Shown: positions 37,761 through 47,476 of the stretch, one piece after another
Numbering within the stretch: position 1 is the stretch's first letter
Layout: every line of letters begins with the position of its first letter
Assembly: GCA_030532685.1 (NCBI GenBank)
Contig: JAUNKN010000008.1
Location: 1 to 54,367, forward strand
Length of the DNA: 54,367 nucleotides
Direction: 5' to 3'
From: Bacteroidales bacterium
Lineage (GTDB): Bacteria > Bacteroidota > Bacteroidia > Bacteroidales > Bacteroidaceae
Notes under the pieces: generated by a model
Seen by the model: the letters and a program-made list of their open reading frames with translations, nothing else
Databases searched by the model: none
What the model was told of the DNA's origin: nothing
Program-made: the position numbers and the translations under genes

Positions 37761-37811
37761 CTTCCCACGCAGAAAATTCTTCTTCCCACGTAAAAAATCC
37801 TACGACGCACG
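37761..37811. repeat. Intergenic repeat family copy B (two CCCACG units 21 bp apart)
   Basis: CTTCCCACG occurs at 37761 and 37782 (period 21). The second unit leads into the 27-bp core 37785-37811 that is identical, inverted, to 17343-17369. It lies between the DUF4494 and tkt promoters. Confidence 0.8.
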
Positions 37812-45226: not shown

Positions 45227-45258
45227 TTTGGTAGCACCAGCAAAAAGTAATACTTTTG
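45227..45258 (+). promoter_or_regulatory. Promoter of the trp attenuator / trpB transcript
   Basis: TTTG (45227-45230), exactly 20 bases, TACTTTTG (45251-45258). It begins right after the previous gene's terminator, so the leader is independently transcribed from ~45265. Confidence 0.85.
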
Positions 45259-45282
45259 CTTTTGAAACAATTGAAAAAGACG

Positions 45283-45345
45283 ATGATGCGTAGCAAGATT
45301 TTGGTACATCTTTGGTGGCGTAACTCAGGATATAGCTTATCGTGA
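45283..45345 (+). CDS. trpL: Tryptophan attenuator leader peptide, 20 residues, tandem Trp codons
   Basis: ATG ATG start at 45283, then 20 codons ending at TGA 45343-45345. Codons 11 and 12 are TGG TGG (45313-45318). The peptide starts ~18 bases after the predicted transcription start and is followed 46 bases later by a perfect terminator. Ribosome stalling at the Trp codons when charged tRNA-Trp is scarce would change the RNA fold and allow read-through into trpB. The structure is as expected of the Bacteroid-trp RNA class known upstream of trp genes; the class match is from memory. Confidence 0.85.
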   Translation: MMRSKILVHLWWRNSGYSLS

Positions 45346-45377
45346 GTCGAACGCCCGTGCGCCATTAGCCCTTGCTA
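45291..45377 (+). ncRNA. Structured trp leader RNA (nested stems around the leader peptide)
   Basis: Nested pairings are visible: TAGCAAG (45291-45297) with CTTGCTA (45371-45377); TGGCG (45316-45320, including the second Trp codon) with CGCCA (45360-45364); ACTCA (45323-45327) with TGAGT (45343-45347). An alternative GGCGT (45317-45321)/ACGCC (45351-45355) competes with the second. Ribosome position at the Trp codons would decide which forms. Confidence 0.65.
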
Positions 45378-45391
45378 AAAGCCATACGAAG

Positions 45392-45426
45392 GAGGTTTGT
45401 CGTAGCTCACGACAAACCTCTTTTTT
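45392..45426 (+). terminator. Attenuator terminator upstream of trpB
   Basis: Perfect 12-bp stem (45392-45403 with 45409-45420), loop AGCTC, then six T (45421-45426). It lies 244 bp before trpB and after the leader peptide, so it can end transcription only in the leader. Confidence 0.92.
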
Positions 45427-45469: not shown

Positions 45470-45550
45470 AAAATTCTTCTTCCCACGTAGATTTTTTTTC
45501 TTCCCACGTAGGATTTTTTTCTTCCCACGTAGAAAATTCTACGACGCACG
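45470..45550. repeat. Intergenic repeat family copy C (three CCCACGTAG units, period 21)
   Basis: CCCACGTAG starts at 45482, 45503 and 45524, exactly 21 bp apart and separated by T-rich spacers. The last unit extends into the CTACGACGCACG end seen in copies A and B (45524-45550; two differences from the 27-bp core). It lies in the trpB leader, downstream of the attenuator. Confidence 0.85.
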
Positions 45551-45670: not shown

Positions 45671-46870
45671 ATGAACAATACTTTTCACATCGACGCCCAC
45701 GGTTTTTATGGCGAGTTTGGCGGTGCTTTCGTACCCGAGGTGCTGTTGCCCAACCTGCAAGAGCTGACGAGCCAATATGCTACGATTATTGAGAGCGAAG
45801 ACTTCCAGCGGGAGTTTCACACCCTGCTGCGCGACTATGTGGGTCGCCCCTCTCCCCTCTACCATGCCAAACGACTGAGCGAGAAATATGGTTGCACCAT
45901 CTATCTGAAACGCGAAGATTTGAACCATACGGGAGCACACAAAATCAACAACTCCATTGGGCAAATACTCATAGCTCAGCGCATGGGAAAGCGCAAAATC
46001 ATCGCCGAGACGGGAGCAGGACAGCACGGAGTGGCCACGGCTACGGCCTGCGCTCTCATGGGTATGGAATGCCGTATATTTATGGGAGCAACCGACATAG
46101 AGCGGCAGCACACCAATGTGGAGCGTATGCGCATGTTGGGCGCAGAGGTAGTGCCAGCCACGAGCGGCACGCAAACCCTGACCGATGCTGTCAACGAAGC
46201 ACTCATGTATTGGTGTGAGCATCCTGAGGATACGTTCTATCTCATTGGTTCGGCCGTAGGGCCTCACCCTTATCCCGACATGGTGGCGCGCTTGCAAAGT
46301 GTGATTAGTGCTGAAATCAAGCAGCAACTGCTTGAAAAGACTGGTCGCGACTATCCCGACCACCTCGTTGCCTGCATCGGAGGTGGCTCCAATGCCGCAG
46401 GCACCATATATCACTACTTGGACGATACGCGTGTGCACATCACGCTGGCCGAGGGAGGAGGATTGGGTAAGGACAGCGGACAGACCGCTGCTACGCTCAA
46501 CATTGGAGTGCCAGGTGTGCTGCATGGCAGTCGCACGCTCGTGATGCAAGATGCCCAAGGCGAAGTGGCCGAACCCTATAGCATCTCGGCAGGATTGGAC
46601 TACCCAGCCATTGGCCCGCTCTATGCGCATCTCGCCACGGCAGGGCGCATCACTCCCTTGGCCATAACCGACCGCGAGGCCCTCACTGCCGCCTTTGAAT
46701 TGACGCGTTTGGAGGGTATCATTCCCGCGCTCGAGTCGAGCCATGCCTTGGCCGTGTTGCCTCACCTTTCGGTCAAGGCTGACGATGTCGTAGTGCTCAC
46801 CGTGAGTGGACGTGGCGACAAAGATTTGTCCACTTATCTTGCTGTGAAAGACGAAATCATAGGTCAATAG
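45671..46870 (+). CDS. trpB: Tryptophan synthase beta chain
   Basis: 399 residues from ATG 45671 ('MNNTFHIDAHGFYGEFGGAFVPEVLLPNLQEL'); the longer frame upstream lies in the repeat/leader. PLP Lys is in 'LNHTGAHKINNSIG'; 'ETGAGQHGVATAT', 'ACIGGGSNAAG' (phosphate loop) and 'EPYSISAGLDYP' are intact. TrpB joins indole and serine to form tryptophan. trpA, trpC, trpD, trpE and trpF are not next to it. It is controlled by the attenuator and followed by an amidotransferase gene after 4 bp. Confidence 0.97.
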   Translation: MNNTFHIDAHGFYGEFGGAFVPEVLLPNLQELTSQYATIIESEDFQREFHTLLRDYVGRPSPLYHAKRLSEKYGCTIYLKREDLNHTGAHKINNSIGQILIAQRMGKRKIIAETGAGQHGVATATACALMGMECRIFMGATDIERQHTNVERMRMLGAEVVPATSGTQTLTDAVNEALMYWCEHPEDTFYLIGSAVGPHPYPDMVARLQSVISAEIKQQLLEKTGRDYPDHLVACIGGGSNAAGTIYHYLDDTRVHITLAEGGGLGKDSGQTAATLNIGVPGVLHGSRTLVMQDAQGEVAEPYSISAGLDYPAIGPLYAHLATAGRITPLAITDREALTAAFELTRLEGIIPALESSHALAVLPHLSVKADDVVVLTVSGRGDKDLSTYLAVKDEIIGQ

Positions 46871-46874
46871 TCCC

Positions 46875-47441
46875 ATGCGCATCGCCGTTATTGACAATTA
46901 CGACTCCTTTGTCTACAACCTCGTCCACCTCCTCACCCATCTCGGTGCGGAGGTGGACGTGTGGCGCAACGACAGCTTTGAATTGTCCCAGTTGGCTGCC
47001 TACGATGGACTCTTGCTTTCGCCTGGGCCAGGGCTTCCCCGTGAGGCCGGTTTGCTGCTCGACGTGGTGCGACACTATGCTGGTCGTTTGCCCATTTTAG
47101 GAGTTTGCTTGGGGCAGCAAGCCATCGCCGAAGCCTTTGGAGGACAGCTTCGACAACTTCCCGAGGTGCGCCATGGTATCGCAACACCTTGCCATTGTTG
47201 TGTGGACGACGAAGTGTTGTTTCGCCATCTTTCCTCCCCTTTTTGGGTGGGACGTTATCACTCTTGGGTGGTCGAGGAGAGCACGCTTCCTGCTTGTCTT
47301 GAGGCCACGGCGCTCACCGAACAGGGAGAAATTATGGCGCTGCGACATCGTTGGCTCGACGTGCGCGCCGTGCAGTTTCATCCTGAGAGCATTTTGACTC
47401 CCCAAGGAGAGCAAATGTTGCGCAACTGGATGAAACGATAA
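46875..47441 (+). CDS. Anthranilate/aminodeoxychorismate synthase glutamine amidotransferase subunit
   Basis: 188-residue class I amidotransferase: 'MRIAVIDNYDSFVYNLVHLL', 'LLLSPGPGLP', nucleophile Cys in 'LGVCLGQQAIAEAFGG', and the His-Glu pair in 'AVQFHPESIL'. It supplies ammonia from glutamine to a chorismate-using partner, either TrpE (anthranilate) or PabB (folate). Neither partner is in the window, so trpG and pabA cannot be told apart; a shared subunit is possible. It lies 4 bp after trpB. Confidence 0.93.
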   Translation: MRIAVIDNYDSFVYNLVHLLTHLGAEVDVWRNDSFELSQLAAYDGLLLSPGPGLPREAGLLLDVVRHYAGRLPILGVCLGQQAIAEAFGGQLRQLPEVRHGIATPCHCCVDDEVLFRHLSSPFWVGRYHSWVVEESTLPACLEATALTEQGEIMALRHRWLDVRAVQFHPESILTPQGEQMLRNWMKR

Positions 47442-47445
47442 GGCC

Positions 47446-47476
47446 TTGGCAGGCCGCCAATTTATGCGTATCTTTG
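47446..47476 (+). promoter_or_regulatory. Promoter for phosphodiesterase gene
   Basis: TTG (47446-47448), 20 bases, TATCTTTG (47469-47476), directly after the amidotransferase stop. Confidence 0.7.

Follow-up and report, generated by a model that had tools for sequence, protein, structure and literature searches.

Why should a trpB gene stand behind a tryptophan attenuator in a draft genome where trpA, trpC, and trpF find no match? The question arises at one locus of the window, meaning here the whole stretch of DNA analysed: 54,367 nucleotides of a Bacteroidales bacterium (assembly GCA_030532685.1, contig JAUNKN010000008.1). Its sequence argues that the trpB leader very probably works as a tryptophan attenuator mediated by the ribosome. 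The explanation as a whole can be offered with good confidence: an attenuator of a Bacteroidales class gates both trpB, for indole salvage, and trpG, whose product would work with PabB. The elements of the locus are these:

45227-45230 and 45251-45258, forward strand: promoter TTTG-N20-TACTTTTG, a consensus that we take to be the Bacteroidota type; window sequence.
45283-45345, forward strand: leader peptide reading frame, 20 codons (MMRSKILVHLWWRNSGYSLS, then stop); Trp-Trp leaders also lie upstream of trpB in relatives.
45313-45318, forward strand: tandem Trp codons TGG TGG (codons 11-12), within the 5' side of the 1:2 stem.
45312-45322 with 45358-45368, forward strand: outer part of the 1:2 stem (anti-antiterminator); window fold.
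45323-45327 with 45343-45347, and 45329-45332 with 45338-45341, forward strand: further helices of the 1:2 stem; window fold.
45340-45346, forward strand: region 2, TCGTGAG, which overlaps the stop codon of the leader and forms the 5' half of the antiterminator.
45406-45412, forward strand: region 3, CTCACGA, which spans the terminator loop and inner 3' arm and forms the 3' half of the antiterminator.
45392-45403 with 45409-45420, forward strand: intrinsic terminator, 12 perfect pairs and a 5-nt loop.
45421-45426, forward strand: terminator T run, T6; window sequence.
45671-46870, forward strand: trpB, ATG at 45671, encoding a canonical TrpB1, tryptophan synthase beta subunit; TIGR00263.
46875-47441, forward strand: trpG/pabA-type glutamine amidotransferase gene, 4 bases after trpB; TIGR00566.

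The promoter, the 20-codon leader with its TGG pair, the nested stems, and the 12-bp terminator with T6 had been named in a first-pass annotation, and all can be read in the window sequence. Its description of stems touching the Trp codons also agrees with the window fold, in which the 1:2 region is one nested element that pairs both codons. The annotation had placed these elements ahead of trpB; the order is right and, more precisely, 244 bases containing a repeat array separate T6 from the gene. The names given to the two genes are borne out as well, since both proteins score over the curated cut-offs: TrpB, 556.7 bits against TIGR00263 (cut-off 392.45); and the TrpG/PabA-type protein, 200 bits against TIGR00566 (cut-off 121.05).

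A sigma-70 scan of the window calls nothing at the leader promoter, which is what a promoter of the Bacteroidota type would lead one to expect. The hairpin at 45392-45420 is absent from the output of a consensus terminator scan of the window, probably because G-T pairs extend its stem into the T run; indeed, an extended stem running into the T run was seen in the hairpin listing of the leaders.

A transcription unit reaching past trpG was considered, and the unit was stopped at trpG, with a promoter-like element at 47446-47476 ahead of the next gene. This element (TTG-N20-TATCTTTG) lies upstream of a gene for a YfcE-type phosphodiesterase. The order trpB-trpG-phosphodiesterase-HAD is apparently repeated in the relative G011, the genes there being named by eye.

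The array between terminator and trpB holds three exact copies of CTTCCCACGTAG plus a T run, with a period of 21 (45479-45532). Two copies with one mismatch each occur at 37761 and 37782 (37761-37793). Exact copies of the 12-mer number 126 in the source genome (67 forward, 59 reverse; none for the reversed control), and some sit no more than 40 bases from the start of a contig.

The leader RNA folds far more stably than its shuffled counterparts: z is -4.78 for the whole leader, with 0 of 200 shuffles equally stable. For the 1:2 region by itself the signal is smaller (z -2.25; 2 of 200). Moreover, a layout scan (ATG-TGGTGG-stop, then at most 120 nt to a perfectly paired stem of 10 bp or more plus a T run) has the trp leader site as its sole match on the two strands of the window, and no match in 100 one-strand mononucleotide shuffles.

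Comparison with relatives covered 105 trpB loci, mostly Bacteroidales: 25 from the genus of the source genome, and 80 from named records outside it (the best 80 of 587). A short reading frame with Trp-Trp, followed by a hairpin at most 200 bases on, occurs at 86 of these loci; the other 19 show no Trp-Trp leader within 520 bases. Of the 86 leaders, 72 have a promoter-like element, TTG-N18-23-TAnnTTTG, in the 110 bases upstream, where shuffles predict 0.4. Seven loci whose hairpin or leader was in doubt (L011, L016, L022, L023, L025, L035, and L074) were set aside, leaving 79 for the permutation test described below. From 78 of these, the window itself being excluded, 53 leaders with Trp-Trp were selected for alignment; the 25 left outside include near-duplicates and atypical leaders (such as L037, L057, L059, L068, L103, L106, L019, and L024).

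The first-pass annotation had staked its reading on the tandem TGG codons and the competing stems being conserved, and both are kept in this alignment. One TGG is invariant in 53 of 53 leaders, a set chosen for having Trp-Trp. Most of them carry GTCGTAAG or GTCGTGAG around the leader stop codon, and in most the complement of this sequence sits in the terminator loop and 3' arm.

Two mutually exclusive helices that share region 2 covary across the 53 selected leaders. The paired fractions, which lean high because near-duplicates and atypical leaders were left out, are 90.0% of cells in the inner 1:2 helix and 91.9% in the 2:3 helix, against slid controls of 30-56% and 25-42%, respectively, a comparison that can be inflated by naming the helices on the same sequences. 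Double-change cells number 47 in the inner 1:2 helix, the only part of 1:2 that these figures cover, and 34 in 2:3, against 15.1 and 13.0 in shuffles, a comparison that relatedness can inflate. A single 1:2 pair fails in 22 of the 53 leaders; the outer 2:3 pairs are broken in 10, 12, and 10; and further pair types in the 2:3 helix do not rise above shuffles (194 of 500 reach the count). The consensus terminator stem in relatives shows covariation as well. Regions 1 and 3 vary together with region 2, as those of a switch would.

The antiterminator partner of region 2 is the terminator loop and inner 3' arm, not the 5' arm. Across the 79 loci, region 2 matches its own loop and 3' arm with a mean of 6.08, against 5.18 +/- 0.12 when permuted; none of 500 permutations is as high. 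The candidate pairing of region 2 with the 5' arm and loop was rejected: its mean of 4.75, against 4.58 +/- 0.09, falls within 200 permutations (maximum 4.81).

How this geometry might switch was examined by nascent-chain folding. In these calculations, which treat truncated chains at equilibrium with an assumed start site and assumed ribosome footprints and are not a kinetic simulation, a ribosome masking the Trp codons gives the 2:3 helix a probability of 0.96-0.98, and the terminator about 0, once RNA has emerged to 45412-45416. With no ribosome, or with one at the stop codon, the terminator reaches 0.88-0.89 at 45416. Once the chain is complete, the terminator prevails even with the ribosome masking the Trp codons (0.99 at 45420-45426); antitermination must therefore depend on kinetics. 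These mask results, at 45412-45426, imply that read-through would be decided as the last bases leave the polymerase.

The proposed model runs as follows. When charged tRNA-Trp is ample, the ribosome would reach the stop codon, which is located in region 2. There it would cover region 2, or release and allow 1:2 to form; both ways the terminator would form, and transcription would end near 45426. When tryptophan is short, the ribosome would stall on the two Trp codons and cover region 1. TCGTGAG of region 2 would then capture CTCACGA on its exit from the polymerase, blocking nucleation of the terminator and enabling transcription of trpB and trpG.

The first-pass annotation had further proposed a classical tryptophan attenuator related to Bacteroid-trp, to be sought with the Rfam model. 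That search fails for the window copy and succeeds for others. A 601-base search of the window with RF01692 stays empty up to E 10, and the source genome has no match at E <= 1; the model reaches its cut-off of 49 bits at four of nine further trpB loci searched (B. fragilis, 107.2 bits; B. cellulosilyticus, 99.6; Parabacteroides, 78.5; and Dysgonomonas, 49.0) and stays below it at L073, L082, L033, L032, and L037. With the RF00513 Trp_leader model, too, the window search stays empty up to E 10; one weak match lies in the relative L023 (24 bits against 41). Nor do Rfam T-box models match the window, for which Rfam searches gave no leader family.

The proposed kinship itself stands. Two covariance models were built from relatives: R1 from the 53 aligned leaders, without the window and with 11 from its genus; and R2 from 42 non-genus leaders, including the four RF01692-positive loci. 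On E-values that are rough, the calibration being short, R1 scores the window at 72 bits (E 4.5e-14), its only match at E <= 0.01 in the source genome, and R2 at 73 bits (E 1.9e-12), its only strong site there. The four RF01692-positive loci align together with the 11 leaders of the genus. The window itself has a tandem-Trp leader upstream of trpB, and exclusive 1:2 and 2:3 helices followed by a terminator. By homology, its leader is assigned to the Bacteroidales trpB-leader class that RF01692 samples, though it falls under that model's threshold. Among the matches listed, RF01692 exceeds its cut-off in none of 58 genus genomes (six have weaker matches at E <= 1), whereas R1 at E <= 2.5e-5 matches at least 24 of the 58, 11 of those 24 having supplied training leaders; this suggests that RF01692 misses much of the class across the whole genus.

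Reduced leaders may also exist. By eye, L020 and L021, from trpA-bearing genomes, have leader-like reading frames with a single Trp or Trp-Arg-Trp plus a hairpin before trpB; neither has an R1 match.

The more interesting part, which the first-pass annotation had not remarked on, is the genes that were not found. TrpB can form tryptophan from indole and serine. The window TrpB has the PLP and active-site motifs, as we take those motifs to be. Because trpA, trpC, and trpF were not found in the source genome, the protein is predicted, most likely, to make tryptophan from salvaged indole plus serine. In the related pair G003 and G007, dN/dS is 0.05 for trpB and 0.07 for trpG, which indicates purifying selection.

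TrpB alone is also able to deaminate serine. A TrpB lacking TrpA might thus catalyse this or another reaction, with the leader reporting tryptophan or the general state of translation. Such a role is very unlikely: a tandem-Trp leader suits an enzyme whose product is tryptophan, and the active-site motifs, taken as above, are intact.

Neither a second close TrpG/PabA homologue nor a TrpE was found in the source genome; the two chorismate-binding genes of G000 encode PabB, over its curated cut-off, and an isochorismate-synthase-like protein, just below its own. With PabB present, no TrpE found, and TrpG the sole close homologue found, PabB is the likely partner, and TrpG is predicted, most likely, to serve it in folate synthesis. 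The leader would then probably regulate indole salvage and perhaps the folate amidotransferase. If TrpG does partner PabB, a folate gene is under tryptophan control.

The source genome is 85.5% complete in 54 contigs, and absences there lean on relatives. Searches for trpA and trpF covered all 58 genus genomes, and those for trpC and chorismate-binding genes 15 of the 58. The usual gene order at the named loci is trpB-E-G-D-C-F-A. The order trpB-trpG is found in the window and in G003, G007, G010, and G011 (95-97% complete), none of which has a match for trpA or trpF. Four relatives with trpB alone (G009, G017, G024, and G041) also lack trpA and trpF matches, and have no further trp gene in the 1.5 kb examined after trpB; nor do the named L049 and L071 in 8 kb. 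The draft state of the source genome invites the view that the attenuator is as described and trpB-trpG a split trp operon, the rest of the pathway sitting in unassembled DNA. This is less likely still, given the four nearly complete relatives. Moreover, no B. fragilis trp gene has a match among the reading frames that follow trpG in stretches from those four; the five trpB-trpG rows group together as a clade (SH-aLRT 96; the tree was a quick one and warns of long branches); and the chorismate-binding genes of G000 do not include TrpE. In the source genome, trpB appears to be the sole remaining tryptophan-making gene, the rest of the pathway apparently being lost.

Several trpB-only rows have longer end branches than their near kin (L049, 0.31; L071, 0.42; L018 is also listed), which perhaps reflects adaptation to working without TrpA. 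A lone trpC-like gene is present in G003 (L125:6693-7502) and G007 (G007:C17:41575-42357), two of the genomes without trpA or trpF matches. In G003 it lies about 46 kb from trpB and, by eye, adjoins an ispF-like reading frame; its protein scores under the curated TrpC cut-offs. Simple salvage does not account for this gene.

Among the 25 genomes of the genus with trpB1, trpA is over the cut-off in 15, is a weak fragment in G014, and has no match in nine (81-97% complete), which have no trpF match either. R1 finds the leader in all nine, five of which supplied training leaders, as well as in G014; of the 15 with trpA, 10 have it. Five of the 25 loci have no R1 match. R2, which had no training leaders from the genus, also matches nine of nine (weakest, L024, E 1.6e-4). 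This suggests a state that recurs in these bacteria, namely salvage of indole under tryptophan control by a TrpB that lacks TrpA. In three further genomes with trpA undetected, only 58-85% complete, the leader precedes a trpB2-type gene for a TrpB-like PLP enzyme, the type being confirmed by NCBIfam in G020 and G038:

L123:7462-7582 (G020): leader before trpB2-type gene.
L124:2894-3034 (G038): leader before trpB2-type gene.
G016:C40:15151-15291: leader before trpB2-type gene.

In G046 (L142:1501-1630 onward), a leader stands before a trpB start that is truncated by eye, possibly an end stage of decay. That the window attenuator is itself a decaying relic of an ancestral trpBEGDCFA operon, with no useful regulation left, is the least likely account of all: relics seem to occur, as in G046 (R1, 65.3 bits), and the window copy is under the Rfam threshold, but its Trp codons, exclusive helices, terminator, and promoter are all intact, the leader is present in nine of nine trpA-less trpB1 genomes against 10 of 15 with trpA, and purifying selection acts on trpB and trpG in G003/G007.

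The preferred explanation, an attenuator gating indole salvage together with a PabB partner, can be extended. In this joint reading, the attenuator now senses tryptophan for cells that make it only from the indole of their neighbours; through this switch the only PabA-type amidotransferase, and with it folate synthesis, also comes to depend on tryptophan hunger; region 2 mimics the terminator 5' arm and captures loop and 3' arm, as a distinct kinetic antiterminator; and the switch has become joined to trpB2-type genes in G016, G020, and G038. We advance the combination tentatively, with slightly less than even confidence.

A literature search, with most subscription journals outside its reach, returned nothing on tryptophan attenuation of a trpA-less trpB, and nothing on a Bacteroid-trp antiterminator. 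In the accessible portion of a reconstruction of gut amino-acid synthesis, the shortest tryptophan variant listed is TrpA plus TrpB, not TrpB alone (PMC9026213). The trpRBA genes of Chlamydia trachomatis are likewise a tryptophan salvage pathway under tryptophan control; there, according to the accessible parts of two reports, control is exerted by proteins, TrpR and YtgR (PMC6504234, PMC7755916).

The Bacteroid-trp leader RF01692 is listed in the accessible part of Weinberg et al. 2010 (PMC2864571). It resembles the window leader in its position before trpB, its Trp-rich leader peptide, and its fold around TGGTGG and GTCGTAAG. However, the model does not report the window copy, and its setting is trpBEGDCFA rather than trpB-trpG. 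As printed, the model contains no antiterminator, since it holds 1:2-type pairs only and ends at the terminator start; the covariation described here is evidence for an exclusive antiterminator of Bacteroidales trp leaders that the model lacks.

Leaders of the E. coli trpL type encode a Trp-Trp-Arg peptide, place the Trp codons in the 1:2 stem, and form an antiterminator and a terminator that exclude each other. The window leader would follow the same working principle, although the proteobacterial model, RF00513, does not match it. In the E. coli trp leader, region 2 pairs with the terminator 5' arm, whereas in the window its partner is the loop and 3' arm. The class of mechanism is already known; the additions made here are its salvage context, its wider reach, and the geometry of its antiterminator.
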